From assembly GCF_000152965.1 (NCBI RefSeq), contig NZ_CH902583.1, positions 3,291,694 through 3,355,693 on the forward strand: a stretch of 64,000 bases of DNA, written 5' to 3'. The notes beneath the pieces were generated by a model that was given only the letters and a program-made list of their open reading frames with translations, searched no databases and was not told the DNA's origin. This DNA comes from Roseobacter sp. MED193 (GTDB lineage Bacteria > Pseudomonadota > Alphaproteobacteria > Rhodobacterales > Rhodobacteraceae). Below, one piece after another: positions 26,488 to 50,252 of the stretch; position 1 is the stretch's first letter; each line of letters opens with the position of its first letter. The translations under genes were made by a program, and so were the position numbers.

Positions 26488-26905
26488 TCCACGATTTCTG
26501 ACAGAGGATGGCGACCTGATCGCTGTCGATATCGATCCCGACACGATTGCGACATTCGAAAAAGGGGTTAATCCAGAATACGAAACGGCCCTCGAAGGCG
26601 GCTACGGATCCGTCGCGCCATATGCTCGGATCGTCGACGATGGTCTCGCCAGGCCAGACCCGGTCGTTTCCCGGTTTCAAGCAAAGGCAGCGCTCCTGCA
26701 GATGGGACTCCTTGATCAGGTTGAAGCCTTGATGGCGGGAATGGACGCCATGACCCGGCTTGCCTGGACAGAGGCGGTTGAGTTCCGTCGCTCAAGTCCG
26801 CTCCTTAATAGCCTTGCGCCGTATCTGACATGGCCGGATGGGACGGCGCTCACCGAGACCGATTTGGACGACCTGTTCAATCTTGCCCAAACCATCGAGG
26901 TGTAA
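26480..26905 (+). CDS. Putative tail fibre assembly protein
   Basis: A 141-residue protein with a GTG start at 26480 preceded by GGAGGG, overlapping the fibre gene stop. The N-terminal part has PRFLTEDGDLIAVDIDPD; the C-terminal part is helical and matches a common phage motif (FQAKAALLQMGLLDQVEALM, then AWTEAVEFRRSSPLLNSLA). Proteins with that C-terminal block follow fibre genes in many prophages and are thought to aid fibre folding. Not catalytic as far as can be seen. Confidence 0.65.
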   Translation: MYNPRFLTEDGDLIAVDIDPDTIATFEKGVNPEYETALEGGYGSVAPYARIVDDGLARPDPVVSRFQAKAALLQMGLLDQVEALMAGMDAMTRLAWTEAVEFRRSSPLLNSLAPYLTWPDGTALTETDLDDLFNLAQTIEV

Positions 26906-26910
26906 TTCTG

Positions 26911-27420
26911 ATGCGATACGAACAGATCCTGCTTGCTGAAGCCACGCCGCATTTTGAAACGATTGCAGAGATCGTGGCCGCTGTGCGTGAAACCAAGGCT
27001 TTGCCACCCATAGACGCACTGTCGGTGCTGCAGAGTTTCGCCAAACGTGGCGATACCGCCGCGCTGGCTTGGGAAGGGGACCGGCTCGTCGGTTGCGTCT
27101 GCCTTGGGGCTTGCCATCACTTCATCTCGAGCCCCGACTGGGTGCCGGTCAAGGTTCGGCTGGTCCGCGACGGCATTGATCTCGCTAAGGTTGGATGCAC
27201 GCATTTCGTCTATTTGCATCCCGACTTTTGGGGGCAGGGAATGACGCTGGCGCTCACGGATCAGGCGCGGCGATCAAACCCGATGTTCACCCATACGCTG
27301 CTGCATGGGTTTGCGACCAAGGAATTCGAGGATTGGGCTGCCGGCCTGGATGGAGTGATCCAGATCGGCACGCGACAGGGGCAAAGCGTATTTGTGCGCG
27401 GTATTGCCGGGGCAACTTAG
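26911..27420 (+). CDS. GNAT-like acetyltransferase at the end of the phage late region
   Basis: A 169-residue protein starting MRYEQILLAEATPHFETIAEIV. The FVYLHPDFWGQGMTLALTDQA segment resembles GNAT motif A, which binds acetyl-CoA, although the classical R/Q-x-x-G-x-G/A loop is only partly matched. GNAT genes are found at the end of tail modules and may modify the fibre or a host protein. It is the last forward-strand phage-like gene; no integrase or attachment site follows. Confidence 0.55.
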   Translation: MRYEQILLAEATPHFETIAEIVAAVRETKALPPIDALSVLQSFAKRGDTAALAWEGDRLVGCVCLGACHHFISSPDWVPVKVRLVRDGIDLAKVGCTHFVYLHPDFWGQGMTLALTDQARRSNPMFTHTLLHGFATKEFEDWAAGLDGVIQIGTRQGQSVFVRGIAGAT

Positions 27421-27695
27421 AAGCAGGTTTCTTTGCGGCCGGTTTCTATCCTCGCGTAGGTATAGGCCCAGTAACCTTTAGGCGATTGCCGGTTCTGTTC
27501 GCCAACGGGTAGCGCGTCTCGCTGAACGCCACGAGACTACGGAGAGAGCCAATGTGATCCAACGACGGATCCTGCAGGCGGCAGCTCGTCGTCGTCGTAG
27601 TCACAACGGGCAGGTTGACCAGCACACCGCGTACCATGGAAGCGCCGCCGCATAGAGAAAAACCTTCACTCAATGCCGGTTTCCTCAGTAACCAG
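27421..27695. other. Gene-free junction between prophage late region and Zorya operon
   Basis: About 275 bases without a supported gene between the last prophage gene and the zorD stop. I saw no tRNA, no clear attachment-site repeat and no strong terminator hairpin. A reverse-strand frame here (ending near 27446) is a continuation of an out-of-frame shadow of zorD and has no start of its own. This is where a prophage end could lie. Confidence 0.4.
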
Positions 27696-30600
27696 TTAAA
27701 GATACGAGATCGACCCGTCCAAGTTCTTGGGGCCCATTGGTGTATCGTCTCGTTTGAACACCATCGCCATCGCGGCGGTGACGGGATCCTCAACCCGCGT
27801 TGCACCACCGTCCGAGAGCATCTGCTGCAACCGGCTCGCGTCTTCCTCAGTGTCTCCCATCGGCCAAAGGGCGGAAGTGGCAAGGCGCCGTTTTCGGGCC
27901 ATCAGACTATGCAGGAGGCAGTCGAAGGAGTTGTGCTGGTACCCAGGGTGGATCGCCATCGGGACGTGCACGGTGACGGGCTTGGACTGCCCGATGCGAT
28001 GGACACGATCGTTGCACTGCTCCTCCACGGCCGGGTTCCACCAACGTGACAGGTGGATCACGTGCGTGGCTGCCGTCAGCGTCAGCCCGGTCCCCGCCGC
28101 CTTAGGACCGAGAACCAGAAGATCAAAGCCCTCGTCGCGGGCGAGGTGCCGTTGAAACCGGTTCACGATCTCTTGCCGACGCGGGATTGGGGTACTTCCG
28201 TTGATCAAATCGACACGGGGAAGACCGAACTCTCGTTTCGTGAGCTCGATGAACCGGTGTTGCATCTTTACGTGCTCGATGAAGACCAGCGCGCGCTCGC
28301 CCCGGTCCTGCACCCCGCGCAGGATGTCCATCGTCGCCAAGAGACGGGCAGACATGCTGATATAGGTTTCGTCTTCCGTCGGTGACGATGCGTCAGGGTG
28401 TACGGAGACGGACCGGATATGATGGAGCATCTTGAGTGCGCCGCCTCGGGTGCCGGAGGCAAGCTTTCCACGCGCCGTCTCGTAAGCGGCGGCCTGCGCT
28501 TCCGGCATGAGCCGCGGGTGCAGACGGCGCGATTTTTCTGGAAGGTCGCGGGCGACATCCTCTTTCAGACGACGCAGCGCAACCGGAGGAAGGCCGCTCT
28601 GCGGCTCGAACATTAGCGAATAGAGCTCGCGCATGTTTCCTTCCGCGGGCTCCCCAAACTTCTCCCGGAACGCCTTCAGTGAGCCGAAACGGCCCGGGGT
28701 GAGCTGCTCCATGATCGCCCACAGGTCAACCGTGCTGTTCTCGATCGGGGTGCCGGTCAGCCCGATCCGAAAATCCGCATTGACCGCGAGCGCCGCTTTG
28801 GCGCGCAAGCTCACGGGGTTCTTCACCGCCTGTATTTCGTCGAATACGGCGGTCGAGAAGGGAATTTTCGCTAGCGAATGTTGGTAGTTCGTCAGCGTCG
28901 TGTAGGTGGTCAGCACCCAGTAACGATGCCCACGCCCCTCATCGATCGCCTCCTCCAGATCGCGGAGGTCCAGCAGCGTGTTTCCGCAATCGGTTTCGAT
29001 GCCCTGCTGGCCAGGCCGCTTCTTGCCTCCGAGGGCTGATCCGTAGAGCCGGACCACATTGCCGAGTCCGGGCGCCCGCAAGTGTTTGTCGACCTCTTCC
29101 TCCCAGTTCACGAGCAGCGAGGTGGGCGCCACTACGAGGACTGGCCCGGCGCGCCCGGCTTCCGAGCGGGACATGTTCTCCTTCATCCAAGCGAGAAATG
29201 CGATCGCCTGAAGGGTTTTTCCTAGCCCTTGCTCGTCCGCGTTCAAGATCCCTGGCAGTCCTGCAGCCCAAGCCTCCAGCTTCCAGAGAAAACTCTCCGT
29301 CTGGTGTCCTTTGAGGGCTGATTTCACCACTTCCGGGAGCGCGTCCGAGGCGAGCCGGGTGCGCGGGCTGATCTTTGCAGCCCAGGTGAGGTCCTCGAGG
29401 TTGTCGGCGGTGTCGAGGATGATAGGCCCGATCCGCGGATCGATTTCCTCCCCGATCACTGGTTTATTTTCTGGCTCTTCCCGCTTCCGGATGGCTTCGA
29501 GACGCTGCTCGAGCGCGGCGCGACTTGTCTGGGTCGCGGGGATCTCGGCGCCGTCGACGTTCACCGACGGCTGTCCGTTCGCGATTGCTGCATCCACCTG
29601 CTGGATGAGCCGCTCGACCTGGTCCGGGGCCATCGCCTCGATTATTTCGGCTGCCGCTCCGGTGAACGCCTCAGGCAGCCATGTTGTCCCGGACCCAGTG
29701 ATCTCGAGCGCCGGTTTCTCGTAGACGGTGAGCCCGATCACCCGATCGGAGTATTCCCGTGTCTCTACAAAAGCGGGCTCTGCCGTTTGCTCAATCAGCT
29801 CCTGCTCCTGGGCCGGCGACAGCCCGTCCAGTTTGCCTTTCGAGCGCAGATGGTCCGTGATCGCCTCGGTGACCTTCTGACGTGGATTGCGGACGAACGC
29901 GGCTCGGGTGACCGGATCCGCTCGTTGCATGTCTGTCATAATCTTGAGGACCGGGGTGGCGGCGGGGTCCACGACCAGATAACTCTGCCCGCCAAGCTTG
30001 TAAGCGGGGCGGGCGCCCCGCGCGAAGGCCTTGTCCTGAAAAGCGCGAAGCCAACCCTCCTGCAGCTCCGCCTCCGCCTCGCTGATCTGCTCCCCGTCAC
30101 GTTCCGCGGCCTCGACCCTCTCGCCGAGAAATGGGATGATCGCGAACTGGTCCTCGCCCTGGGGGCTGATCGAGAACCGGTCCGTCAGGGTCACTTCGAG
30201 CCCAGAGAGGAAATCGGTCATCCCGAGGCGCGCTTCCGCATCGGCCCGGTACATCCGGACCCCGGGCTCAAGGGCGCGCCGAAAACGGGCAAGCGCCTCC
30301 CAGTGCTCCTCGAGGTCAGAGCCGGCCCGGAATCGGTCCGCTACCTCAAGCGCGTCCAGCATCCATCTCGGGAGGCGGCGAAGCCCGTCGGCCCCGTCGC
30401 CCGCGGTCTCCAGGATCGCACCGGTCCGATGGGCGATCTCCTTTCGGCCCGCCCGGACCCAGTCATGGGTCAGGCGGAAATCGGGGCTGCCGATCTGGCC
30501 CATGACGTCTGTGCGCAGGGTGAGGTCCACCAAGGGGGGAAGACCAAGCGCGTCCGCCGTCTCCGAGGAGAGCGCGCTCAGCGTTCTGTGAGAGAGCTGA

Positions 30601-30794
30601 ATACGGTCACTCCCGATCTCCACCTGATCGCCTGCCTCCTCTGCGGTGGCTCGTAGATCGGCCAACGCGAAGCTCAGCCGCTTGTCGTGATCGAAATCTG
30701 GCACCGTCCCACGTGAGAGGAGCCGGTCCAGCAGGGACTGGCGAGACCTGAACTCGAGGGTGACCCAGTCCTGATCATAGGTAAGCTGGATCAT
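27696..30794 (-). CDS. zorD: Zorya defence protein ZorD, SNF2-type helicase
   Basis: A 1032-residue SF2/SNF2 helicase. The C-terminal half carries the motor: motif I DEQGLGKTLQAIAFLAWMKE near 518-537, motif II VFDEIQAVKN near 650, motif III GLTGTPIENSTVDLW near 680, and motifs V-VI AAGTGLTLTAATHVIHLSRW and NDRVHRIGQSKPV near 900-935. The N-terminal half (1-480) is Zorya-specific and helical. In type I Zorya, ZorD acts with ZorC on invading DNA. It is the fourth gene of zorABCD and its start overlaps the zorC stop (ATGA). The length is near that of characterised ZorD. All motor motifs look intact. Confidence 0.9.
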   Translation of the reverse strand: MIQLTYDQDWVTLEFRSRQSLLDRLLSRGTVPDFDHDKRLSFALADLRATAEEAGDQVEIGSDRIQLSHRTLSALSSETADALGLPPLVDLTLRTDVMGQIGSPDFRLTHDWVRAGRKEIAHRTGAILETAGDGADGLRRLPRWMLDALEVADRFRAGSDLEEHWEALARFRRALEPGVRMYRADAEARLGMTDFLSGLEVTLTDRFSISPQGEDQFAIIPFLGERVEAAERDGEQISEAEAELQEGWLRAFQDKAFARGARPAYKLGGQSYLVVDPAATPVLKIMTDMQRADPVTRAAFVRNPRQKVTEAITDHLRSKGKLDGLSPAQEQELIEQTAEPAFVETREYSDRVIGLTVYEKPALEITGSGTTWLPEAFTGAAAEIIEAMAPDQVERLIQQVDAAIANGQPSVNVDGAEIPATQTSRAALEQRLEAIRKREEPENKPVIGEEIDPRIGPIILDTADNLEDLTWAAKISPRTRLASDALPEVVKSALKGHQTESFLWKLEAWAAGLPGILNADEQGLGKTLQAIAFLAWMKENMSRSEAGRAGPVLVVAPTSLLVNWEEEVDKHLRAPGLGNVVRLYGSALGGKKRPGQQGIETDCGNTLLDLRDLEEAIDEGRGHRYWVLTTYTTLTNYQHSLAKIPFSTAVFDEIQAVKNPVSLRAKAALAVNADFRIGLTGTPIENSTVDLWAIMEQLTPGRFGSLKAFREKFGEPAEGNMRELYSLMFEPQSGLPPVALRRLKEDVARDLPEKSRRLHPRLMPEAQAAAYETARGKLASGTRGGALKMLHHIRSVSVHPDASSPTEDETYISMSARLLATMDILRGVQDRGERALVFIEHVKMQHRFIELTKREFGLPRVDLINGSTPIPRRQEIVNRFQRHLARDEGFDLLVLGPKAAGTGLTLTAATHVIHLSRWWNPAVEEQCNDRVHRIGQSKPVTVHVPMAIHPGYQHNSFDCLLHSLMARKRRLATSALWPMGDTEEDASRLQQMLSDGGATRVEDPVTAAMAMVFKRDDTPMGPKNLDGSISYL

Positions 30795-33016
30795 TTTTGT
30801 CCGCCCTTTCCGCCCCGGCGCAGCTCCTCATAGAGCATTTGAAGCTCCGCGACCTCTTTCGGACGAAGGTCCGGACTTCCCTCTCTCAGCTTCCGCACCG
30901 CGACCGCGAGAGGCTTGCGCTGATCGAATGTGCGCTTCCACATCCCGAGATCTTCAAGCGCGTCCGCATGCGCGCGAAGGAGATCAAGGCGCCCCTTGGC
31001 GTTATCCGGGAGCTGCGGGAACTTCTGGCCTCCAGATTCCGCGACTTCTTTTTTCGGAACGGTCTTGGACCGGGTGGGCTGACTCGATATCGGAGGCGGC
31101 GCAGCGAATGATACGAACAGGTCATCCAGATCCACACCGCTCGTTTTCAGGTTGAGAAGCAGATGCTCCAGCGCGTTTCTCAAACGAAGCGGAGGTTCGC
31201 CCTTTACCGCCCGAACCCATGCCAACCCTTCTCTGGATTTCGGCGACAGAGCTGGTCGGGTTCTACCTTTCTCGGGTGCCTCCAGATACGCGAGAACCGC
31301 TGCGGCCGCCGCAGGACCGTAAGCTATCATCCGGTCCGTGAGACTGGGGAACCGGACCTGTTTCAAGGAGGCCGCATCGCCGGAATCGGTTTGTACCGGC
31401 TGCGAGGTCTCAGGCTGAACGCGCTGTGCGGCTGCAACTCTTGCGGGAGGTGCGGCGGGTCGACTGGTGGGGTTGGAGAGTCCCGTAGCGGAAGATGGTC
31501 GCATGGCACCTGTTGAACTGAAAATGTCTTGACCGGATGTTGAAGCGCCAATTTCGCGCCGAGAAGGCTGAAGATCAGTGTGGCGCGGCGTTGGGGTGTG
31601 CCGTGATGGAGTGGTTCTACGTGTCGGTGTACGCGGCCTGAACACTTTTGTGTAGGGCCGCGTTTGTTGCGACCATGGCACATCAGCGTTGATCATGTCC
31701 CTGACCCAGCGGCTCCAAGATGGAATGCTGCTGTGTGATTTGGAGGCGCCCGAAGCCCTCCGGTCCGACGCGCGCATGATCTGATCACAATTATACCCCT
31801 CCTCGAACAGCTTCGGTGCCATGGGGTCGGCGATGTCGAACACGTGCGTCCGGTAGCTGTGACACCCGTCCACCATAATCTTGTTCCCGATCTTCATGAT
31901 TAGGAGGGATGTGTTCTGGCGCGCCTGCTGATACCCGACCCGGGTGTGGGCGTTCTTCGCATCCTGACGCATGAGGTGTTGGCGTGCATACTCGAATGCC
32001 TGCGAGGACAAAGCCGCCCAAGCCGCATCTATCTTTCCCTCATCGTAAAGCTTAAGCCAAAAATCCCGGCGCGGCGGCCACATTGCGTCTTTCTGGGTAG
32101 CGTCAACGACCCCGGTGAAAAAGCGCATATCTTCCCGTGTCAGCCAGCGGTGCACGATCGCCATGTAGCGCTCGTCAATACCGCCCCATACCCCACCAGA
32201 TTTGATCCGCGGATCCCCGTAGAGCTCGATCAGGGTTTCCACGAGGTAGGATCTGAGTTTGTCCTCCGGAGTTTTTTCTAGCCATGGATAGATAAGGGCT
32301 TCGATCGCCAGCTCAGCTCCTGTGTTGCGGCCCACGTCCTTGCCCGGTGGGCGTAGCCATCTGATATACCAGTCAATCAGGTCCCGCTCGGACAGATGTG
32401 GCTGGACAATAGAGGTTAGGGACCGGTGGGCGAAATCCATGAACCCGCCGCCATGTGGGTTGCGAACCCCGAGACCGAGGAGTTCTGTGTAGGGGGCAGA
32501 CATCTTCGACATCCGGGCCGCGAGCCGTTCCGGACCTGACACGGGATCCATGAGTTCCGGGATAGCCTCCAGAAGGAGACGTCCGGTTGTGCTCATCCGC
32601 CGAGCCGCCGTGCCGAGTGCGGTCGCGAGTGCGGTCGTGTGCGTACCCTTGGGGACGTAGCTGTCGAGATAAGCGCGCAGCAGCCCGGACAGGAAGGTCT
32701 CGGATGTTGATAAGTCAATCTCGGCGTAGAGGAAGTCTCGCGTCCGGGCTAGGTCAGGGCGCTCCCGCCGTTCCGCGTCGAAAACGGCCGAAGCCGCGGC
32801 TACCACGAAGGAGAGGCGGGTTTCCTCCCAATCGCTACGTTCAACACGATCCCGGAGCTTTTGCGCCAGCGCCTCGCGCTCCTTCTCTGTTCTGGCCACC
32901 TGAACGTCGGGCCAGCGTTCCCGCACCCGGTCAGCGGCCGCTTGCAGGTATCGAAGCTCCGGAACGGACAGGGCTGAGAGCTGCCCTGCCTTTTCAAGCG
33001 CATCCATGAGGCTCAT
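30791..33016 (-). CDS. zorC: Zorya defence protein ZorC (EH-signature domain) with long C-terminal extension
   Basis: A 741-residue protein with the Zorya ZorC (EH_Signature) region over residues about 1-450: WYIRWLRPPGKDVGRNTGAE near 216-235, RRDFWLKLYDEGKIDAAWAAL near 316-336, SLLIMKIGNKIMVDGCHSYR near 370-389, and SHSSIPSWSRWVRDMI near 427-442. ZorC is thought to bind invading DNA with ZorD. From about 455 the sequence is Pro/Arg/Thr/Ser-rich and then helical, so the protein is markedly longer than the Escherichia coli type I ZorC (about 560 residues, from memory). It overlaps zorB and zorD by four bases each. Confidence 0.88.
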   Translation of the reverse strand: MSLMDALEKAGQLSALSVPELRYLQAAADRVRERWPDVQVARTEKEREALAQKLRDRVERSDWEETRLSFVVAAASAVFDAERRERPDLARTRDFLYAEIDLSTSETFLSGLLRAYLDSYVPKGTHTTALATALGTAARRMSTTGRLLLEAIPELMDPVSGPERLAARMSKMSAPYTELLGLGVRNPHGGGFMDFAHRSLTSIVQPHLSERDLIDWYIRWLRPPGKDVGRNTGAELAIEALIYPWLEKTPEDKLRSYLVETLIELYGDPRIKSGGVWGGIDERYMAIVHRWLTREDMRFFTGVVDATQKDAMWPPRRDFWLKLYDEGKIDAAWAALSSQAFEYARQHLMRQDAKNAHTRVGYQQARQNTSLLIMKIGNKIMVDGCHSYRTHVFDIADPMAPKLFEEGYNCDQIMRASDRRASGASKSHSSIPSWSRWVRDMINADVPWSQQTRPYTKVFRPRTPTRRTTPSRHTPTPRHTDLQPSRREIGASTSGQDIFSSTGAMRPSSATGLSNPTSRPAAPPARVAAAQRVQPETSQPVQTDSGDAASLKQVRFPSLTDRMIAYGPAAAAAVLAYLEAPEKGRTRPALSPKSREGLAWVRAVKGEPPLRLRNALEHLLLNLKTSGVDLDDLFVSFAAPPPISSQPTRSKTVPKKEVAESGGQKFPQLPDNAKGRLDLLRAHADALEDLGMWKRTFDQRKPLAVAVRKLREGSPDLRPKEVAELQMLYEELRRGGKGGQK

Positions 33017-34116
33017 TCCGATCCCCCTGCGGCGCGCAGCGCCTCAAGTCGGCGTCCGACTTCTTCCACCTCCTCGACGGTACTTGGCGCGTACATGATG
33101 ATCCGAAGATCGATCCGCCGGTTCGCGGCCTTCCCCTCGGTCGTCTCGTTGGTTTCAATCGGTCGCATCTCCCCGTAGCCTGAGACGGACATGACCGGCT
33201 GGTCGCGAAGGTTTCTATGAGCCAAAATGCCTGCTACTTCTTCTCGTATTGCGAAAAATGTCTCGTTAGCTCTTCGTGTTGACAGTGTAACGTTGTCGAT
33301 ACGTCCTCGATCACTGTCCGTGTGTCCCTCGATCTGGACCGCCTCGATCAGGGCGTTTCCGCTCTCACAATCCGGCCCTCGCTCCGCCCTCTCCCCGAGG
33401 GTAAAGCAGACGAGGATCTCATCCAGAAGACGACCCATGGTCTCCACGATCGCGCGTTGACGCCTCTCGAGCTGGGGTGATCCGCTGCGGAAAAGGCCTT
33501 CCCCCTGGAACCGGAGCGCGTCCTGTTCCGGGCTGATCACGACCTGAAGCTCCGGAAACTCGATCAGGAGCCGGTCGCGAAGTTCAACGAGGATCTCCCT
33601 TCGCTGGTCAATGGCCTGGGAGAGGTAGGCCTCGAGCGGGTTGACCACCTGGAGCCGTTCGATCTTATCCCGCAAACGCTTGATCTCCTCCCGCAAACGC
33701 TCGATCTCTTCGACAAGCTGGTCGATCCGGGAACGCAGGTGCTCGTTCTCCTCCTCCAGTTCAGCAACCCGGGCCCGGAGCGCCTCATTTTCGTCTCGCA
33801 GCTGGTCGAGTTCGCTGAGCAGCCGGTCTCGCTCGGCGGTAACCGTCTCCAACTCGGACGTGACGCGGGCAAGTTCGGCCTCGAGGGCCTTAACAGAGGC
33901 GCGCAGGTCCTGGTTCTCGACACGCAGTTCGTCGCGCTCCTGACGGACCCTCTCATATGCGGTCAAGGGGACCGACTCGTCATCGTTGAGCTGGGTCGCG
34001 AAGAAGGCGAGCAGGATCATGATGATCAGAAGGAAGCTGATCGTCATGTCCGTCATCGTGACAAAGACGGACTCCTCCTCCTCAGCGCGCGTCCGGTTTC
34101 GCTCCAGCCGGCGCAT
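33013..34116 (-). CDS. zorB: Zorya defence protein ZorB, MotB/OmpA-like stator with long coiled coil
   Basis: A 367-residue stator subunit. It has a charged N-terminus, one membrane helix (TISFLLIIMILLAFFATQ near 25-42) with Asp23 in MTDMTI as the likely proton-carrying residue, and a C-terminal OmpA-like peptidoglycan-binding domain near 195-345 (IEGHTDSD at 262-269, NRRIDLR at 332-338). Between them lies a roughly 100-residue heptad-rich coiled coil (about 55-157). With ZorA it forms a proton-driven motor in the inner membrane that senses phage entry. It lies two bases after zorA and overlaps zorC (ATGA). Confidence 0.9.
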   Translation of the reverse strand: MRRLERNRTRAEEEESVFVTMTDMTISFLLIIMILLAFFATQLNDDESVPLTAYERVRQERDELRVENQDLRASVKALEAELARVTSELETVTAERDRLLSELDQLRDENEALRARVAELEEENEHLRSRIDQLVEEIERLREEIKRLRDKIERLQVVNPLEAYLSQAIDQRREILVELRDRLLIEFPELQVVISPEQDALRFQGEGLFRSGSPQLERRQRAIVETMGRLLDEILVCFTLGERAERGPDCESGNALIEAVQIEGHTDSDRGRIDNVTLSTRRANETFFAIREEVAGILAHRNLRDQPVMSVSGYGEMRPIETNETTEGKAANRRIDLRIIMYAPSTVEEVEEVGRRLEALRAAGGSE

Positions 34117-34118
34117 GC

Positions 34119-36161
34119 TCAGTGCCTCTGCTCAGGACGAAACTTCTCCGCCTGATCAACGATCTCACGCATTGTATCCAGCGCGGGCGCCAGCTCGCCG
34201 TTCATCTTGCGGACATGCTCGGCAAACGTGTCGAGCGACGTCCGGACATGAGAGGCAAACTGATTAAACGCCGCGCCGAGTTTGTCATCCATGTCGTCGA
34301 TCTGTTCACGCTGTCGCTCCATATGGTCTAGCCCCTCCCCCAACTTCGTGAGGGACGTTTCGATCAGTTTCTGCTCCGCACTCAGCGCGGCTTTTGCAGC
34401 GTCCAGAACTCGCGCCGCGTTCTCTGCGGTCTCCCTGGAAGACCTGGTAACGGTCTCTGCCGCGTTCGCCGTACTCTTCGCAAGCCCAGTGGTTGCGGTT
34501 TCGATCCGCTCCACACTGCTTCTGACCGGCCCGGCCGCCACTTGCAGGTCCCGCGAGGCGGTTGTGAGAGTTTCGGCCGCAGATCGGGTCGCGTCTCCGC
34601 CGGACTTGATGTGACCAGCCGCGGTTGCGATCTGAACAGACCCATCTTTCAGCCGGTCCGCCATCTCGTCGAGTTGCCCCACCACCAGGGTGATCGGCTC
34701 CAGAAGATCGGCCTGGATACTCTCTCGGAATTCGCCCGAGGCGGACAGGAGATCATGCCCGCTGCGCGTGACTAAATCCACCATGCCGCGACCCGCCTCG
34801 GAGATCGCCCCTTCGACCTCCACGCCAGCCGTTTCCATTCGGGAACGGACCGCGTCGGATCCGCTGGCGGCGGCGGCGTCGAGTTCCTCGCGGAACGTTC
34901 CGGCGGAGGCGCGCATATCCGCAGCCGCCTCTTTAAGCGCGTCCGCCCCCTCGGCGGTGTTTCGCCGGATTCCTTCCAGCGTCTCGTTCATGATCCCGAG
35001 GAGCTTCTCTGCGCCGGCATTCAGAGTTCCGTCCGTCGTTTGAGCAGCTGACGCAAGTCCGGCTGACAGGTCTTCTGCCGCTCTGGCGAGCTTAGCCACG
35101 GAGGTCTCCATCTCCTCTCCCATCTGTCCGGAGCTCCGGTCCATCCGGTCGGATAGGCTCGCAATCTTGTCCCCCGCGGCGGAAAGCTGCGCGCTGGCGT
35201 CGGAAAGCGCCCGCCCCACATCGTCCGAAAACCGGGATGAGAGATCGGTCACCATCTGTCCGACCCCGTCGGCGCCGGCCTTTCCGACCTTGTCCAGCAG
35301 CGGGGCCATGGCCGTGCTGATCGAGCTTGAAATGGATTCTGGGATCTCTTTCTTAAGTGAACTGCCGAGCTCGGCCACCAGTGTGGTACCGATCTCTAGG
35401 AAGCTGTCCTTCTGGCCGCGCGCGATCTCGAGTTGCTCCATCGCGACCCCTTCGAGGCTAATGAAGCTTAGTCGGCTTTCCAACTCTGCGCATAGCGTGT
35501 GAATTCGTCGCTCCACCCGCCCCGTGAGCGAACGCAGGACGATCGTGAAAATGATCGAGGCCAGCAGTCCGGTCAGAGACATGATGAACTTGGCGGAGGC
35601 TGCGCCGAGAAGGCCGTCGAGGGATGCGCGCATTTCTTCGGGAGAGGCGTCGCTTAGCCCAGTGATTTGTTGAAGTGCCGAGATGAGACCGAGAAAAGTG
35701 AGGAAGAGACCGACAGTCACGAAAAGGCCCGGCATGTAGCGGGAAAATCCCGGGCCGAAATGCAGATCCTCAAGGTTGAAGAAACTTGAGGGGCGCACGC
35801 TGTTTCGCAGGACTGGCTGACCAGCGCTCTTATCCTCGATCATGGTTTCACGAAACTCGTCCCAGGCAGCTGTGATATGGGTGTAGCCTTTCCGAGCCCG
35901 GACCTTTTTCACTTCCTGACTGATCTTGTTCACTTGAGTGGCGAAATCGAATTCGTCCTTAGCAGCCCGTACTTGACCTTCTAGCCAACGGAGGGACGTC
36001 AGTTTTCTGTGAGCACTGATCCCCACAACCAAAACGGATAACAGGAGCCAAATCAGGATCCCGATCGAAACCAAACCAGGCGCCTGTTCTTTGGTCAGGA
36101 ACGATGATCCCCAGAAAATGAACCGGGACATACTCGTTCCGATATCCGCAATAAACTCCAC
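34119..36161 (-). CDS. zorA: Zorya defence protein ZorA, MotA/ExbB-like motor with long cytoplasmic tail
   Basis: A 680-residue motor subunit with a GTG start preceded by GGAAGGAAG. Membrane helices are near 31-49 (VSIGILIWLLLSVLVVGIS), 145-165 (LFVTVGLFLTFLGLISALQQI) and 190-210 (AKFIMSLTGLLASIIFTIVL), the last two being the MotA/ExbB core. From about 225 to the end it is a long helical tail of polar heptads (Ala, Ser, Glu, Asp rich), as expected for the ZorA tail that signals to ZorC/ZorD in the cytoplasm. First gene of zorABCD. The start is 135 bases downstream of the HEPN gene stop, so an own promoter or readthrough are both possible. Confidence 0.92.
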   Translation of the reverse strand: MEFIADIGTSMSRFIFWGSSFLTKEQAPGLVSIGILIWLLLSVLVVGISAHRKLTSLRWLEGQVRAAKDEFDFATQVNKISQEVKKVRARKGYTHITAAWDEFRETMIEDKSAGQPVLRNSVRPSSFFNLEDLHFGPGFSRYMPGLFVTVGLFLTFLGLISALQQITGLSDASPEEMRASLDGLLGAASAKFIMSLTGLLASIIFTIVLRSLTGRVERRIHTLCAELESRLSFISLEGVAMEQLEIARGQKDSFLEIGTTLVAELGSSLKKEIPESISSSISTAMAPLLDKVGKAGADGVGQMVTDLSSRFSDDVGRALSDASAQLSAAGDKIASLSDRMDRSSGQMGEEMETSVAKLARAAEDLSAGLASAAQTTDGTLNAGAEKLLGIMNETLEGIRRNTAEGADALKEAAADMRASAGTFREELDAAAASGSDAVRSRMETAGVEVEGAISEAGRGMVDLVTRSGHDLLSASGEFRESIQADLLEPITLVVGQLDEMADRLKDGSVQIATAAGHIKSGGDATRSAAETLTTASRDLQVAAGPVRSSVERIETATTGLAKSTANAAETVTRSSRETAENAARVLDAAKAALSAEQKLIETSLTKLGEGLDHMERQREQIDDMDDKLGAAFNQFASHVRTSLDTFAEHVRKMNGELAPALDTMREIVDQAEKFRPEQRH

Positions 36162-36296
36162 TGCTGTCTTCCTTCCTGCTCATACGCCGCTTTGCCTAAG
36201 TCGATTTGTTACTATCCGCAGTTGTGTGGTGATTTAAATATCAACTGAATGGATTTTTTGGCGTTCCTAACCATAAGGTTAAAATTCCTATCGCAT

Positions 36297-36959
36297 CTAT
36301 TCCACAACCAGATAAAACGGCTGTCCCCAATCCTCGTTTGGATTGTCCATCATGATGTCGACAAAGACGGGCATGAGGAAAGCCAGGATGGCGGCACCAT
36401 CTCCGACCTGATCGCGATTCACGCCGCCGTTCCAAGTGGCGCCACCATGGATCAGTTGGTTCCTTAGGACATAGAGACGGTCGAATACCAGGCCCAGCAA
36501 TCGCACAGTGTCACGAGCTTGCACGGCTTGAGTGAACACGCGGGCCGAGGAAACGAACCGATCTTCCCAGTCTTCATTGTTTGGAATGCCGTTTTGATTG
36601 AGCCAGAACGGGTTGAACACATGTTTGTTTTGCATGAGCATTCGGATTGGTCCGCTGAAGGCGCTCCAAATCGCATCGTATATGCGGTTCTCTTGGTCCA
36701 GACTTACAAGCCTCTGGAAGAACTCATTAAATGTTGTGCGTTCGCCGGTTGGTATTTCTTGAAAATCCGCTTCCTTTGCATAAGCCGCATTAAAAGCGAT
36801 CCATAGAAACAGAAACTGGCCATCAGGATCTTCGCACATCTCGGAGCGTTCAATCCAACTGATTGCACGGTGCACTCTCAATCCCATCGTAGAAGGAAAG
36901 TTATCCCTAATGGAGCGCTGTTTGGCTTTGAGATCTGCATGGGGAATACTGCCTTGCAT
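36297..36959 (-). CDS. HEPN-domain protein
   Basis: A 220-residue protein of the HEPN superfamily. The C-terminal RNQLIHGGATWN segment near 176-187 carries the Rx4H motif (Arg176 to His181) found in HEPN ribonucleases, and the LFLWIAFNAAYA segment near 50-61 is typical of one HEPN subgroup. Many HEPN proteins cut RNA in toxin-antitoxin or phage-defence systems; others only bind. Located between a WYL regulator and zorA on the same strand, 26 bases after the regulator. Whether it belongs to the Zorya system, or forms a separate pair with the regulator, cannot be told. Confidence 0.75.
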   Translation of the reverse strand: MQGSIPHADLKAKQRSIRDNFPSTMGLRVHRAISWIERSEMCEDPDGQFLFLWIAFNAAYAKEADFQEIPTGERTTFNEFFQRLVSLDQENRIYDAIWSAFSGPIRMLMQNKHVFNPFWLNQNGIPNNEDWEDRFVSSARVFTQAVQARDTVRLLGLVFDRLYVLRNQLIHGGATWNGGVNRDQVGDGAAILAFLMPVFVDIMMDNPNEDWGQPFYLVVE

Positions 36960-36985
36960 ATTGCGGCTCCAATTGGGTGAGTGCT

Positions 36986-37969
36986 TCAGGGTAGGGACGG
37001 GAAATCGGCGCGTTGATAGCCTTGGACGAAGTCGCGCAATTCCGGTGGGTCAATGACCTCGACGGCATCGCCCCACTCGTACAGGAACCATGACATTTCG
37101 AGCCACCCGGCGGCAGTAAAGCGGACAACCAGGCTTCCATCTGCCTGGTACTGCAAAGTCTGCTTTGGATGAAACCGAAACTCCGAGGCACGCTCGGCAG
37201 CTTCCGGCTTGAACCGCCATACCACCTCTTTGAGTTGATCAGGGTCATGATAGGCGCCGAATGCCTGGGCGGCGTAATTCTCGATAGAAAACCCATTTTC
37301 GGGGATGAACCATTCATCCAGGCATTTTGCCGATTGAATGCGATCCATTCTAAAATTCAGCAACTCGGCACCACGATCTGGTTGCTTGGCAATGAGATAG
37401 CTGCGTGGTCCCAGAAGCAGACCGTAAGGCTCGATGGTTCGGGCTTGATCCGAGCGGCCGCTATAGATGATTTCCAGACGAAACGGCCCTCTGAGCCCCT
37501 CCGTTACAGCGTCAGCAATCTTTTGATTCAGCGGCACACGCGGCCCCGGGCGAGTCACTTGGCCCAAGGCTTCCAGGACGGCTTCCGCGTCTGTCTCCGC
37601 GCGCTTTGCGTCGCGTGCGGAAAGGCGCAGCATCAAGCCATTTCTGGTGTCCTCCAGAGCCTGTGCATGGCGCAGCCGGCCTTCTTCCTTGGCGCGGCGA
37701 CTGGCGATCTCCAAGGCCTCAACCGCGGTTTCCTGATGGGGCTGAAGCTGGGCAATGGTTGGATCGTCGACCTTCCAATAGGAACGTCGATCTGAACCGG
37801 TCTGTTTGGTCACATTTGCAAATGTCAGCTCAAGTGCATCGGTCATGCGTTGTGCGGTTCTGTGGGATACAGAAAACTCTGCCCTAATATCCTCAAGGCT
37901 CACGCCGAAGTGGCGTGTGGAGGCCATCAAGGCGAGGCGCAACAGATCTTGGGCTTTTGCAAAGGACAT
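36986..37969 (-). CDS. WYL-domain transcriptional regulator
   Basis: A 327-residue regulator. Residues about 1-70 form a helix-turn-helix (AKAQDLLRLALMASTRHFGVSLEDI and VSHRTAQRMTDALE). The middle and C-terminus hold a WYL-type ligand-binding domain (TIEPYGLLLGPRSYLIAKQ near 180-200) and a WCX-like extension. WYL regulators often control defence loci and may sense nucleic acid fragments or small nucleotides. As first gene of the WYL-HEPN-zorABCD stretch it probably represses or tunes the genes downstream of it. The ATG at 37969 is the only good start. Confidence 0.85.
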   Translation of the reverse strand: MSFAKAQDLLRLALMASTRHFGVSLEDIRAEFSVSHRTAQRMTDALELTFANVTKQTGSDRRSYWKVDDPTIAQLQPHQETAVEALEIASRRAKEEGRLRHAQALEDTRNGLMLRLSARDAKRAETDAEAVLEALGQVTRPGPRVPLNQKIADAVTEGLRGPFRLEIIYSGRSDQARTIEPYGLLLGPRSYLIAKQPDRGAELLNFRMDRIQSAKCLDEWFIPENGFSIENYAAQAFGAYHDPDQLKEVVWRFKPEAAERASEFRFHPKQTLQYQADGSLVVRFTAAGWLEMSWFLYEWGDAVEVIDPPELRDFVQGYQRADFPSLP

Positions 37970-38033
37970 GTAATTACCGTGACAGAAATTGACACCCGCA
38001 GGATTGCCGCGGGTGCCATGTTTGTCCAGAGCT

Positions 38034-38198
38034 TTAACGCTCCGCTGATTCCTTGAGGAAAAACGAGATCAGAACGCCGAGCGGTCCAAGTAAGAACCCA
38101 AGGGCTGCTGCAAGGCCTGCCTTGGATGGAGCACGGTCGCGTGCGACCATGTAGCTAAGGCCCGCGCAAACGATCCAGAGTAGTATCATGACTTCCAT
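38034..38198 (-). CDS. Small membrane protein
   Basis: A 54-residue protein from an ATG at 38198 with an AGGAGAA site six bases upstream. Two hydrophobic segments (MILLWIVCAGLSYMVA and AALGFLLGPLGVLISFFL) flank a basic loop (RDRAPSKAG). The layout resembles short proteins of the bacteriocin-like or membrane-modulating kind, but no family is recognised. It lies on the same strand as the secreted-protein gene at 38239, separated by 40 bases. Confidence 0.7.
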   Translation of the reverse strand: MEVMILLWIVCAGLSYMVARDRAPSKAGLAAALGFLLGPLGVLISFFLKESAER

Positions 38199-38238
38199 AG
38201 TATTCTCCTATTTGAGAGTTTGTTGTGTGAATGTGATG

Positions 38239-38742
38239 TCAGCCGTTTGAACGGCCTAAACGGAGGGCAGGGGCATGACATGTCAGTCGTGAACCTCCAT
38301 CCGATGACGTTGTGATCTGTGCCGCAGCAATGCCTTTTGGCTGCGCCCAAGCGGCCACTTGGGCTTGGGCCTGGTACAGCTCCAAACTCAACTGCGTCCG
38401 GTTTTGTGAAAGATTTGCGGGCCAAAGTATTTTGGGCCCATCGCTGCGGCCATTGTCGGACGTCCAGCTAGCGCAAATCCGTTGGACCTGCAGACCATCG
38501 ATCGACCAAGGCATCTGTGCCTCAAAGCATTGTAACGGGGCAGGTGGCAATTCGGACGGGAGATGAATGACGCTATTTGCCGCCAATGCCAGCACCGCCG
38601 CAAACGCATCAGGCGCGTTTTGGCATTTAAGCTCGTTGATCACATAGGCGTCCACGGTCGGTTGCGGCGCGGGCAATACCGCTATCTCCTCGGCCATGGC
38701 CGATGTTGCAATGAATGCCAAAGCAAGGACGGAAAGCTTCAT
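38239..38742 (-). CDS. Secreted protein, paralogue of the gene at 42652
   Basis: A 167-residue protein starting at ATG 38742 after a GGAGGATCC ribosome site. It has a clear signal peptide (MKLSVLALAFIATSAMA) and a mature part with four cysteines. The segment PQPTVDAYVINELKCQNAPD and the QCFEAQMPWSIDGLQVQRIC segment align with the protein at 42652-43155, which has the same length and Cys spacing. Function unknown; likely periplasmic or exported. Confidence 0.75.
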   Translation of the reverse strand: MKLSVLALAFIATSAMAEEIAVLPAPQPTVDAYVINELKCQNAPDAFAAVLALAANSVIHLPSELPPAPLQCFEAQMPWSIDGLQVQRICASWTSDNGRSDGPKILWPANLSQNRTQLSLELYQAQAQVAAWAQPKGIAAAQITTSSDGGSRLTCHAPALRLGRSNG

Positions 38743-44106: not shown

Positions 44107-44481
44107 GTGGATGAACAAGGCTTGCGTCGGCCTTTCGCAACAGCGTTTGGATAAGAGCGGCAGCAACACACAGCTTTCGGCGGTGCACGTCCAAAGAACC
44201 TTAAGGACACTTTGGGCTCAATAAGGCGCCAAAACGGTTAGACTTCTCGCCGTCTATATTTTTCTGAATTCGATGATCTTAGGGTGACAAAAGCTGACGT
44301 GAACGAAATGGAAACGCGCTTAACCTATTCACAATGCTATATTTTAAGCCCCATCCATCATGTGGTGTTCCCGCATTATTACTCGTAGCCTCGACCCAAG
44401 AGACGGATTCGCATGCGTTTGCCAAAACTCTTGGGCGCGGTCGGTTCTACTCTCAGATTTAATCGCATTTCGGGAGAAATC
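44107..44481. other. Gene-free region upstream of the nuclease-helicase gene
   Basis: About 375 bases between the IS element and the start chosen for the next gene. An in-frame ATG at 44413 would add 23 residues. The stretch AATGCTATATTTTAAGCC near 44332-44350 is the best candidate for promoter -10-like sequence, without a clear -35 partner. No RNA gene or other frame is supported. Confidence 0.35.
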
Positions 44482-47400
44482 ATGCGGAAGACCGATGGAA
44501 TAACCTTGCTGTCAGCTTCAGATCTTATGAAGTTTTTAGGCTGCACGTATTCCACAGTGCTGGATATTGACCGCATGAATGGTGGCGGCCCCGAGCCACG
44601 CGCAGACACGGATGATGCTCGTTTGCTTCAGCAACAGGGCGATGCGCATGAGCTGGCGCACTTGGAAAAACTGAAGGCGCAAGGATTGAGCGTTGTGGAA
44701 ATCGAACGCACTGAGTTGTTCGATGATGCGAAACGCACCCGTGAGGTTCTGGCTCAAGGGGCCGACGTCATTTTCCAAGGGGCGTTTTGGTCTGAAAATT
44801 GGGGTGGCTGGTCCGACTTCCTGGAGCGCGTAGATACACCGTCGGACCTAGGTGACTTCAGCTACGAGGTCGCCGACACAAAGTTGAAACGCAAGCCGCA
44901 TCCAAGCCATGTTCTGCAGCTGGTTTTGTATTCTGACCTCTTGGCTGAGATCCAAGGCGTGGCACCTGAATATGCACATGTTGAATTGGGCAATGGCGAG
45001 CGCGCGACGCTGCGGCTGGCGGATTACGCTGCCTATGCCCGTATGGCACGCGAACGGCTGGAAGCTTTTGTGGCCAATCCTGAACCAGCGCGCCCCATGC
45101 CCTGCGCCAGCTGTGGCCTCTGTCGATGGGCTGATCATTGCGAGAGTATTTGGCAGGCCGAAGACAGTTTGTTCAATGTCGCCAATATCAGTCGTGGTCA
45201 GGTAAAGAAGCTTGAAGCCGCAGGCGTCAAAACCTTGGAAGACCTTTCGAAGCTCGATCACCCTGTTCGGGGAATGGCGGAAAACACACGGGTTCGTTTG
45301 ATCACGCAGGCTCGCTTGCAACAGGCCCGCAAAACCGGCGAACCAGATTTCGAACTGCGTACACCCGAGCCAGGCAAGGGATTCGACCTTTTGCCGGAAC
45401 CCCAGCCGGGCGATCTGTTTTATGACATTGAAGGTGACCCGCATTACGACGGTGGTCTCGAATATTTACATGGGCTTTGGTTTGATGGCGCGTTCAAGGC
45501 GTTTTGGGCCCATGATCATAAGGAAGAAGCTCAGGCACTTTCGGACTTGTTGGACTTCTTTCGCGCCCGGATTGAAGAATACCCGACCGCGCGCATTTAT
45601 CATTACGCGCCATATGAAATCACCGCGCTCAAGCGGCTGACTTCCAAATACGGGATTGGCGAAGCCTTCTTGGACCGCCTTTTGAGAGAGCGCAGGTTCG
45701 TTGACCTGTTTGCTGTCGTTCGCGGTGGGCTGATTGGGTCGGAGCGCAACTATTCCATCAAGTCGATGGAAGCATTTTATGACCGAAAGCGCGACGGCGA
45801 GGTCACGACTGCCGGCGGCTCGGTCGTTGCCTACGAGCAGTGGCGTGAAACGCAGGAGCAGCAAATTCTCGACGAGATCGAAGACTACAATCGCATCGAC
45901 TGCATTTCGACCGAAGAGTTGCGAGATTGGCTTGCGCGTATTCGTCCTGCTGGTCCCTGGCCTGCGTTGGTTGCGGATGCGCAAGAGCAAGAGGATGAAG
46001 AAGACGCCGAGGCGCTTGCATTGCGCGCACAGCTTGCAGAAAGCGGTTTACCCGAAGACCGGCAGTCGATGTTGTTTGACCTGGGAAGTTTCCACAAACG
46101 CGAGGTCAAACCGGCTCAATGGGCCGTGTTTGAAAGTGCGTCGAAGGACGAAGATGACCTGATTGACGACCTGGATGCTCTGGGTGGTCTTGTGGCGGTT
46201 GGAGCGGTTGAGCCGATCAAGCGCTCATTCGCACGTGAATACAGCTTTCCACAGCAAGAAACCAAATTGCGTCGAGGGAAAAAAGCCACCGTGCCGGCCT
46301 TAGATATGCCTCCTGTGACTGTTGGCATTGAGGCCATGGATCGCAGCGCGCGAACAATCAAAATCAAGGTTGGCCCAGGCAAAGCTGATCTGCTGACTGA
46401 TCATCTATCGCTACATCCGGACTGGCCTCTGCGAACCGATGTCATTGCTTCGGCGTTGCAAGATGTGATCGCGGATCAATGCGGTGGGCGAGTATATAGT
46501 GCGGTGGACGATCTTCTGTCGCGTAGCCATCCTCGACTTCGAAGCGGCCGCCCCCCTGATCTTGCTGGCGGGGGAGACCCGGTCGAGGCAACAATATCAG
46601 TTGTAAACGACATGGAGGGATCGGTCCTGCCAATCCAAGGGCCGCCCGGTACGGGCAAGACTTATGTGAGCGCCCGCGCAATCCTGTCATTGGTGCGCAA
46701 AGGCTATCGCGTTGGTGTGGCGTCAAACAGCCATGAAGCCATTCGCAATGTGCTGATGGGCTGCGTTTCGGCGGTGGAGGAGGGCGTTCAAACGGAGATG
46801 CCTGATTTGGTGCACAAAGTTCCCAGCGACAACGATGGTTATCCGGATGGCTGCGCAGTTAGGCGCACAAAATCCAATGACGAGGCTGCCGCAGGCGGTG
46901 ACGTGGTTGGTGGGACCGCATTTTTCTTCGCGCGAGAGGAAAACATTCAAGCTTTCGATTGGCTCTTTGTCGATGAAGCAGGGCAGGTGGGTCTGGCCAA
47001 TATGGCCGCGATGGGTCGTTCTGCGCGCAACATTGTCCTAGTGGGCGACCCACAGCAATTGCCCCAGGTAATCCAGGGTGCACATCCGGAGCCTGCGAAC
47101 TTGTCTTGCCTCCAGTGGATGCTCGGCGAGCACGCGACTGTTCCCGCCGATCGGGGTATTTTCCTTGCGACGACGCGCCGGATGCATCCTGAGGTGTGCG
47201 AGTTTATTTCAGACCAAGTGTATGAGGGCAGGCTGTCGAGCCATCCGGACACCGAAAACCAGTCTGTCGATTGCCCGTCACTTCCACCTTCTGGTGCCTA
47301 TTGGGTGCCGGTTGAGCATCAATCCAACGCACAGATTGCGCTGGAAGAAGTTCAAGCAATCAAAGCCGCCGCCGCGGACCTTCTCAAGGGGACGTGGACG

Positions 47401-47778
47401 GACAAGGACGGAACCACACGGCCGCTCCGGGAAACCGACATCATTGTGGTCGCTCCTTACAATGCCCAAGTCAATGCGCTTCGAGACGCGCTGCCAGCGG
47501 CCATTCGTGTTGGCACCGTTGATAAGTTTCAGGGGCAGGAAGCACCTATTTGTCTTGTGTCAATGACCGCGTCGTCGGCAGATGAGACACCACGAGGCAT
47601 GGAGTTTTTGTTTTCGCTGAATCGCATCAATGTCGCGGTCTCACGCGCTAAGGGTCTGGCCTTGGTTTTCGGCGCGCCGCGCTTGCGCGAAGCCAAGTGC
47701 GATACGGTGGCACAAATGCAGCTGGTGAATACTTTGTGTGCGCTAGAAAAGCGTATTCTATGTTTTTTTGTTCAATAA
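44482..47778 (+). CDS. TM0106-type RecB-like nuclease fused to RNase H-like and Upf1/DNA2-type helicase domains
   Basis: An about 1,100-residue fusion (ATG 44482 with GGGAGAA just upstream; 44413 possible). Part 1 is a RecB/Cas4-like PD-(D/E)XK nuclease: YEVADTKLKRKPHPSHVLQL and a four-cysteine cluster MPCASCGLCRWADHCE, which in Cas4/AddB relatives binds an iron-sulfur cluster. Part 2 is an RNase H-like DEDD domain: FYDIEGDPHYDGGLEYLHG, YHYAPYEITALKRL and YNRIDCISTEEL. Part 3 is an SF1 helicase: Walker A GPPGTGKT, VDEAGQVGLANM, GDPQQLPQV, TVDKFQGQEAP and NRINVAVSRAK. All motifs look intact. It heads a same-strand group with two membrane proteins. A DNA defence or repair role is inferred. Confidence 0.88.
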   Translation: MRKTDGITLLSASDLMKFLGCTYSTVLDIDRMNGGGPEPRADTDDARLLQQQGDAHELAHLEKLKAQGLSVVEIERTELFDDAKRTREVLAQGADVIFQGAFWSENWGGWSDFLERVDTPSDLGDFSYEVADTKLKRKPHPSHVLQLVLYSDLLAEIQGVAPEYAHVELGNGERATLRLADYAAYARMARERLEAFVANPEPARPMPCASCGLCRWADHCESIWQAEDSLFNVANISRGQVKKLEAAGVKTLEDLSKLDHPVRGMAENTRVRLITQARLQQARKTGEPDFELRTPEPGKGFDLLPEPQPGDLFYDIEGDPHYDGGLEYLHGLWFDGAFKAFWAHDHKEEAQALSDLLDFFRARIEEYPTARIYHYAPYEITALKRLTSKYGIGEAFLDRLLRERRFVDLFAVVRGGLIGSERNYSIKSMEAFYDRKRDGEVTTAGGSVVAYEQWRETQEQQILDEIEDYNRIDCISTEELRDWLARIRPAGPWPALVADAQEQEDEEDAEALALRAQLAESGLPEDRQSMLFDLGSFHKREVKPAQWAVFESASKDEDDLIDDLDALGGLVAVGAVEPIKRSFAREYSFPQQETKLRRGKKATVPALDMPPVTVGIEAMDRSARTIKIKVGPGKADLLTDHLSLHPDWPLRTDVIASALQDVIADQCGGRVYSAVDDLLSRSHPRLRSGRPPDLAGGGDPVEATISVVNDMEGSVLPIQGPPGTGKTYVSARAILSLVRKGYRVGVASNSHEAIRNVLMGCVSAVEEGVQTEMPDLVHKVPSDNDGYPDGCAVRRTKSNDEAAAGGDVVGGTAFFFAREENIQAFDWLFVDEAGQVGLANMAAMGRSARNIVLVGDPQQLPQVIQGAHPEPANLSCLQWMLGEHATVPADRGIFLATTRRMHPEVCEFISDQVYEGRLSSHPDTENQSVDCPSLPPSGAYWVPVEHQSNAQIALEEVQAIKAAAADLLKGTWTDKDGTTRPLRETDIIVVAPYNAQVNALRDALPAAIRVGTVDKFQGQEAPICLVSMTASSADETPRGMEFLFSLNRINVAVSRAKGLALVFGAPRLREAKCDTVAQMQLVNTLCALEKRILCFFVQ

Positions 47779-49175: not shown

Positions 49176-49361
49176 CAAGAGATTTGTCACTAATCCAACG
49201 GAACTGCAGTTGTAGAGTCTCATCTTGCTGGTTGTCCGGTGTGTATTGGCAAATACGAACCGCGCTCGAGAACCGGAAACCTCGTTGACTTTCAAAGCTT
49301 TACGCCACTAGGTTCCCGTACGGAGGCTAGATCTTCACTCTTTTTCTAGGAAAACATCGGG

Positions 49362-50096: not shown

Positions 50097-50252
50097 ATGA
50101 ACAACGAAACGCCGACCCTTGGTCATCACCTGTACCGCGAAACGGACAAGACCAAAACCGCTCGTCGCTTTATCGCCCGTTTTCGGTCTCACAAACGTGC
50201 ATTGATACAGTTAGTTCTAAGTTTCACATGCGACAGTGGGCGTTTTAGATAA
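50097..50252 (+). CDS. Possible small coupled gene
   Basis: A 51-residue frame starting at the ATG directly after the previous stop (TAAATG), and ending in TAA that overlaps the helicase start (TAATG). Sequence MNNETPTLGHHLYRETDKTK then an arginine-rich part (RRFIARFRSHKRALIQ). Both junctions suggest translational coupling, but the frame is short and lacks its own ribosome site. Confidence 0.35.
   Translation: MNNETPTLGHHLYRETDKTKTARRFIARFRSHKRALIQLVLSFTCDSGRFR

Follow-up and report, generated by a model that had tools for sequence, protein, structure and literature searches.

A probable complete type I Zorya system with a long heptad-repeat stalk in ZorB, adjoining a prophage of Roseobacter sp. 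MED193

The Zorya operon

The 64,000-nucleotide stretch of Roseobacter sp. MED193 DNA analysed here (the window) exhibits four consecutive open reading frames (ORFs) on the minus strand, corresponding to the zorA, zorB, zorC and zorD genes of a type I Zorya defence system. A previous examination of the letters alone (the sequence-only reading) had described four tightly coupled minus-strand genes in the type I order with junctions of two to four bases. The ORF map exhibits them exactly so: all four are co-directional, zorA and zorB are separated by a 2-base-pair (bp) gap, and zorB/zorC and zorC/zorD overlap by 4 bp. No frameshift or stop interrupts any of them. The features of the operon are as follows (aa, amino acids).

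34119-36161, minus strand: zorA, 680 aa, GTG start; MotA/ExbB-like motor subunit with a long cytoplasmic tail
33013-34116, minus strand: zorB, 367 aa; transmembrane helix with ion-site Asp23, heptad stalk (aa 51-159), OmpA-like peptidoglycan-binding domain
33640-33966, minus strand: ZorB stalk (aa 51-159), 3.5-residue hydrophobic period, without proline or glycine (coordinates computed from residue numbers)
30791-33016, minus strand: zorC, 741 aa; EH_Signature core (aa 26-441) and a C-terminal extension of about 300 aa
30794-31339, minus strand: ZorC C-terminal region (aa 560-741), no family match found
27696-30794, minus strand: zorD, 1032 aa; SNF2 helicase, Walker A GLGKT (aa 523-527), DEIQ (aa 652-655)

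The type I identity proposed by the sequence-only reading agrees with profile searches. The best PADLOC matches of all four proteins are type I models: ZorA1 (E-value = 1e-285, 680/680 aa), ZorB1 (8.9e-114), ZorC1 (8.4e-145, aa 1-441) and ZorD1 (E-value = 0, aa 2-1030). PADLOC reported 19 families for ZorA and 9 for ZorC, every one a Zorya model, and the strongest non-Zorya rivals are far weaker (DpdE, 6.4e-69, for ZorD; the coiled-coil LmuB, 3.5e-8, for ZorB). No other system matched better. Another four-gene system, such as Dpd or DISARM, was considered and rejected, as it scores lower in PADLOC and the operon partners of zorD match ZorA, ZorB and ZorC. Pfam identified MotA_ExbB in ZorA (4.5e-5, barely past its cut-off), OmpA in ZorB (1.6e-8) and EH_Signature in ZorC (7.6e-48); in ZorD it identified only SNF2-rel_dom and Helicase_C, the Mrr-like nuclease region being a feature named for ZorD. 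Among solved structures, ZorA and ZorB match chains C and B of Shewanella ZorAB (8vvn; E-value = 3.2e-12 and 1.2e-9, respectively) and ZorD matches 8qy7 (2.7e-69).

Four observations weigh against this assignment. The PDB search gave no solved-structure relative of ZorC at E-value ≤ 1. The NCBIfam ZorD equivalog is not reached (293.6 bits, cut-off 1500), and the NCBIfam ZorA subfamily cut-off is only narrowly passed (195.5 vs 190). Models of ZorD alone are also unspecific: ZorD1 is likewise the best match (7.5e-109) of an orphan SNF2 gene to the left of the prophage described below. The ZorD1 match of the operon counts because it is full length and lies inside the operon. We do not take the single NCBIfam ZorD cut-off as defining type I, though a reader may. 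Four same-strand ORFs matching four type I models in the known order are far beyond chance. Judged from its sequence, the locus very probably encodes a complete and probably functional type I Zorya system; it is a new member of the known type, made a variant by its long ZorB stalk.

The key residues are in place. T155 and S195 of ZorA align with T147 and S184 of Escherichia coli ZorA, two residues that line the ion path, and both are invariant in 20/20 aligned sequences. Also invariant in 20/20, the window included, are the GLGKT and DE Walker motifs of ZorD. ZorB Asp23, invariant in 19/19, aligns with D24 of 8vvn_B. The sequence-only reading had named the loss of Asp23 or of the Walker residues as what would speak against it; none is lost. 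Passages of PMC11890865 report that D24N abolishes defence, and that wall binding and defence require five ZorB residues (H186, L199, R203, R254 and R259). The window ZorB has like residues at a constant offset of 79 (H265, L278, R282, R333 and R338), and these are invariant in 19/19 aligned ZorB sequences, this correspondence being one of numbering, with the Serratia protein itself outside the alignment. The ratio of nonsynonymous to synonymous substitution rates (dN/dS) is 0.09-0.30 in 12/12 gene comparisons (the four genes against loci L004, L010 and L045), eight of these values being rough because dS exceeds 1. By these measures the Zorya system looks intact and under selection. The near-identical copies L002 and L003 were left out of all alignments. 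The ZorB and ZorC of L049 were left out of alignments A2 and A3; its ZorB was added later, its 566-aa ZorC (uncertain start) was not.

The ZorB stalk

Between the membrane helix and the wall-binding domain, the window ZorB exhibits a stalk of 109 residues with a hydrophobic period of 3.50. The hydrophobic fraction is 0.81 at two core positions and 0.08 elsewhere, and similar heptads recur within the stalk. From Asp23 to Arg172 of the wall-binding domain the span is 149 residues, compared with 41 in 8vvn_B (read from the alignment). The stalk would be about 16 nm long if fully helical.

We compared this span in 37 ZorB-like proteins. Alignment A2 supplied 19 of them, and a profile search of L049 and additional loci the other 18. 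Among the added 18, L129 and L130 have an annotated zorABCD order, L049 has zorA, zorC and zorD, and L131, L135, L137 and L138 entered via ZorD-like matches; eleven were included with no check of zorC/zorD neighbours, so some may be other MotB-like proteins or other Zorya types. L128 and L134 (copies of L044), and ZorD matches for which no ZorB was found, were dropped before counting. The spans range from 34 to 226 residues. Modulo 7, fifteen of the 37 fall in class 2 and represent seven different lengths (100, 135, 142, 149, 156, 177 and 226); of the remaining 22, nine fall in class 6, seven in class 3, three in class 0, two in class 4 and one in class 5. Parsimony on a tree built from the conserved parts yields 25 length changes. 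Of these, a mean of 11.2 (8-14 across 500 random reconstructions) are divisible by 7, compared with 3.6 expected. Whole-heptad changes are thus about three times as frequent as expected. When moduli 3-15 were tested on the length changes, only 7 and its multiple 14 were enriched.

In most long-stalk relatives the phase of the hydrophobic pattern is tied to the membrane. Counted from the membrane Asp, it is concentrated at R = 0.95 over the 25 sequences with a span of at least 95; counted from the wall domain, R = 0.42. It is kept near one value across differing stalk sequences, including L117 and L116 of other families. In L054 and L055, two Zorya loci with a shifted stalk phase, ZorA is only 481 aa long (676-702 in the other 20).

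We place at roughly 0.4 the probability that the membrane helix continues in heptad register into a rigid two-stranded periplasmic stalk, so that evolution favours whole-heptad length changes. A number of points weigh against it. The L004 ZorB span is 44 residues shorter than that of the window, a difference not divisible by 7. Among the 21 distinct lengths, congruent pairs are only weakly in excess (p = 0.04), and under the least favourable reconstruction the length-change test gives P = 0.019. Three of the 25 long spans (L118, L124 and L131) exhibit no 3.5-residue period, and the phase is shifted in L118 and L131 as well as in L054 and L055. The Rayleigh p overstates the concentration of phase because the sequences are related and not independent. 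The span anchors were set by hand, as profile alignment and a regular expression failed for many sequences. Finally, stalk lengths of 57-186 residues (about 8-28 nm if helical) range so widely that the stalk is not a fixed ruler.

Length varies widely even among close relatives. Passages of PMC11890865 describe component sizes as well conserved within each Zorya family; the ZorB spans given here do not fit that statement. The terms "coiled" and "linker" are absent from the main text of that paper, and no stalk is mentioned in the titles and abstract openings of the Zorya papers that the literature search listed. We do not claim the stalk as unpublished.

Proposed role of the stalk

The mechanism outlined here is borrowed from published work on other type I systems, and would carry over to the present one. 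ZorA5B2 would be an ion-driven motor of the inner membrane, with the C-terminal domain of ZorB gripping the peptidoglycan. An incoming phage would disturb the envelope, ions would flow and ZorA would turn about ZorB; the ZorA tail would then gather ZorC and the ZorD helicase, leading to an attack on DNA. The main target may be phage DNA, or host DNA too. Published reports do not settle this; passages of PMC11890865 describe host strand breaks upon overproduction of Zorya I or of ZorCD. What would distinguish the present lineage is the coupling of wall to pore, the heptad stalk making up most of the 149-residue span. Tentatively, the stalk may form an unbroken two-stranded coiled coil, through which torque or strain would pass rigidly between wall and pore. 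The genes, their intact motifs, selection, the heptad repeat, its phase and the length pattern are observed; the dimeric coiled coil, its rigidity and its role in sensing are inferred.

The stalk could instead be merely a spacer, a coiled coil formed from two adjacent ZorB chains in which steps of seven arise by repeat slippage in heptad-coding DNA and not by selection for register. We consider this a serious contender, though somewhat short of an even chance. It would account for the recurrence of similar heptads and for the variation of length among close relatives. The constancy of phase relative to the membrane Asp through differing stalk sequences, L117 and L116 included, speaks against it, yet slippage alone could still yield both the phase and the length patterns.

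If the rigid stalk in membrane register is real, ZorAB would sense strain or torque through a stiff lever instead of acting as a motor on a floppy tether, a distinction that bears on how Zorya senses phage through the cell wall. The phase tied to Asp and the tendency to steps of seven make rigid coupling directly testable, by comparing in-register with out-of-register length changes.

The ZorC extension

The EH core of ZorC ends near residue 441. About 250-300 further residues are present in five of 19 aligned ZorC sequences (the window, L004, L005, L010 and L044) and absent in the other 14; they comprise a part rich in proline, serine and arginine, followed by a conserved region. PADLOC has no family for the C-terminal region, and Pfam applied to the whole ZorC identified EH_Signature only. 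A search of 390 genomes of the order with the C-terminal region gave its own copy and two weak matches (E-value = 8.5e-5 and 5.7e-4; one with a stop). Its predicted model is poor (predicted local distance difference test score, pLDDT, 65).

The prophage end and cassette mobility

On its 3' side the operon meets a prophage. The following features are concerned.

3411-27420, plus strand: prophage late region (terminase gpA, portal, protease, capsid E, tail, fibre), last ORF 26830-27420
10470-11861, minus strand: cold-shock and DUF3825 protein, inserted among the phage late genes in the opposite orientation
L106 4733-18610, minus strand: complete BREX type I operon BrxA-B-C-PglX-PglZ-BrxL at the tail end of a second related prophage, with the same side and strand relation as Zorya
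L109 606-1460: WYL regulator beyond the BREX operon of the second prophage

The left end of the prophage lies near a serine recombinase at about -15.4 kb, which is followed by terminase, portal, capsid and tail genes. From the stop of zorD to the end of the last phage ORF (26830-27420, plus strand) there are 275 bp, in keeping with the sequence-only reading (within 275 bases); the phage-facing end is the 3' end of the operon, and the two converge tail to tail. Promoter and terminator scans at the zorD end found nothing, and in the interval 35950-38350 the numbers lie within about 2 standard deviations of shuffles. Rfam, at gathering thresholds, gave no match within the window.

DNA homology to L004 (Jannaschia) and L045 covers positions 27663-36181, that is, the four genes, with gaps at the stalk in L004 and at the ZorC extension in L045. 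Beyond it nothing is shared upstream of zorA in L004, and only a separate HEPN gene in L045. In L002 (Shimia) and L003 (Sulfitobacter) the WYL, HEPN and Zorya genes are about 97-100% identical to those of the window, the Zorya genes by themselves 98-100%; the phage genes of L002 are 85-92% identical, and identity to L002 jumps from 86% to 98% at the phage/zorD junction. By these comparisons the Zorya genes are a separable mobile cassette, and their join to the phage end looks recent. ZorA has a match at E-value ≤ 1e-20 in 13 of the 390 genomes, three of them partial; type I relatives with the same four genes occur in Shimia, Sulfitobacter, Jannaschia, Rhodobacter, Bosea, Tatumella and Zymomonas plasmids. 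The phage collection gave no match to ZorA or HEPN.

A second copy of the last phage ORF lies at 2.04 Mb of the genome, with the opposite-strand BrxA-B-C-PglX-PglZ-BrxL beyond it. Since this second, related prophage has a complete BREX operon at the corresponding place, the prophage tail end looks like a site of defence cargo. An integrase beside tRNA-Met in the BREX prophage was rejected, the gene being DUF4172/Fic. An opposite-strand block of defence type directly follows the last phage ORF in four of five copies (Zorya in the window and in L002, WYL-HEPN in L070, BREX in L106). Genome G299 exhibits WYL-HEPN at the tail end in one copy (L070) and, by clustering and by eye, nothing recognised in the other (L107); L108, a sixth related tail end lacking the last phage ORF, exhibits no defence block in the 3 kb covered. 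The Zorya cassette thus likely occupies, as candidate cargo, a position for defence genes where prophages of this group end. Two related prophages of one genome carrying different large defence operons, Zorya and BREX, offer a natural setting for studying exchange. The Shimia contig (L103, L108; about 63-117 kb) also has another related prophage close to its Zorya region, and McrB/McrC-like genes (by eye) separate the two prophages.

There is close to an even chance that Zorya belongs to a chromosomal island and merely adjoins the prophage. An island of about 80 kb is delimited by a tRNA-Ser at about -25.2 kb and by host DNA from position 54659, where synteny with a sibling picks up again; in siblings G390 and G395 the site is occupied by about 11 kb of different DNA. 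The zorD side of L003 is joined to DNA other than the window phage-tail sequence, as far as the 94 bases between the end of homology and the contig end show. The phage together with all right-hand cargo would also amount to about 70 kb, large for one capsid. Against the island stand the four of five copies of the last phage ORF that adjoin a defence-type block, although L107 and L108 show none. A search for an attachment site as a repeat of the tRNA-Ser end yielded nothing longer than 14 bases. An IMG/VR provirus whose ZorD is 100% identical does not settle the border, because its end falls within the operon, where zorC starts. An insertion sequence (IS) copy at 53405-54658 lies exactly at the right border of the island, immediately before host synteny resumes, and is 100% identical to one at G000:C1:3680480-3681733.

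The WYL-HEPN pair and other genes of the island

Upstream of zorA lie two further genes on the same strand.

36297-36959, minus strand: HEPN-like protein, 220 aa, RX4H; an upstream neighbour, not core Zorya
36986-37969, minus strand: WYL/WCX transcription regulator, 327 aa; nearest solved chains 9pfq and 8tp8

R166 and H171 of the RX4H motif are invariant in 23/23 aligned sequences. The predicted model of the HEPN-like protein is all-helical (pLDDT 86.6), with no PDB fold match at E-value ≤ 0.001 (best 0.95) and no Pfam match; among the 15 plasmid matches listed, of 27, 11 are named HEPN domain-containing. HEPN relatives occur in 32 of the 390 genomes (31 of the 389 others). Chain 8tp8 we take to be Caulobacter DriD. 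A passage of PMC12340889 describes DriD as activated by single-stranded DNA; the link of the WYL protein to DriD is unsure because part of PMC9122601 gives a length of 914 aa, compared with a 347-aa chain. WYL-HEPN loci often lie near McrB/McrC-like genes (named by eye).

The WYL and HEPN-like genes might be functional parts of a six-gene Zorya, WYL switching it on and HEPN adding an RNase effector. All six genes are on one strand. The HEPN stop lies 135 bp from the zorA start, and a scan of this gap gave no promoter-like site on the coding strand. An HEPN relative is on the same contig in four of nine other genomes with full-length ZorA (about 0.5, 4, 9 and 16 kb away); co-occurrence by genome gives P = 0.003 (0.010 counting all 12 ZorA genomes), and passages of PMC9122601 place BrxR-type WYL regulators beside Zorya. 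The pair is nonetheless adjacent on one strand in 17 of 35 HEPN loci, 14 of which have no zorA in the stretch examined, and only five of 22 zorA loci (three near-identical) have HEPN in the stretch. In L004, homology to the window stops at the cassette and does not extend upstream of zorA; in L045 the HEPN gene is divergently oriented. We therefore regard a six-gene system as unlikely, and L004, L045 and the locus counts do not support HEPN and WYL as an obligate part of Zorya.

That the operon is a decayed, non-functional remnant is very improbable: its recent mobility between stretches of mobile DNA could be a prelude to decay, but all four genes are uninterrupted, the key residues are invariant and dN/dS is well below 1.

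Other genes of the region are listed below.

44413-47778, plus strand: RNase_H_2 and superfamily 1 (SF1) helicase protein, 1121 aa; best PADLOC match MkoA (5.5e-47) over the helicase part
48264-53107, plus strand: TerB-domain protein, 244-aa protein and UvrD-like helicase with zinc ribbon; a possible further defence unit
L086 17354 to L085 3744 (window about -22.3 to -16 kb): SNF2 helicase (best PADLOC match ZorD1, 7.5e-109), HATPase protein (MzaB match, 2e-40), C-5 methylase and Vsr-like gene (by eye)

The family of the helicase-nuclease gene at 44413-47778 is present in 21 of 52 sequences compared, and in 19 of the 35 HEPN loci. The last entry is a Mza-like restriction island left of the prophage.

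Comparison with known systems

The window system shares its gene set and order, and its motor, ion-site, wall-binding and helicase residues, with the type I Zorya of Shewanella sp. ANA-3 (8VVN), Serratia marcescens ATCC 274 and E. coli. In Shewanella 8vvn_B the wall-binding domain lies close above the membrane helix (span 41), whereas the span is 149 here; the window ZorC also carries about 300 additional C-terminal residues. Zymomonas ZorB has almost no stalk (span 42), and stalk length varies among type I relatives. The kinship of ZorA and ZorB extends to type II and type III Zorya, in which, by the definitions in passages of PMC11890865 and PMC8565338, ZorE or ZorF/ZorG stand in place of ZorC/ZorD. 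The MotAB, ExbBD and TolQR motors share the Pfam MotA_ExbB and OmpA domains, to which the window system adds the ZorC/ZorD operon and a long ZorA tail. The SNF2 helicases of Dpd and DISARM share the SNF2 fold and are the next-best PADLOC matches of ZorD, whose full-length match to ZorD1 is far higher.

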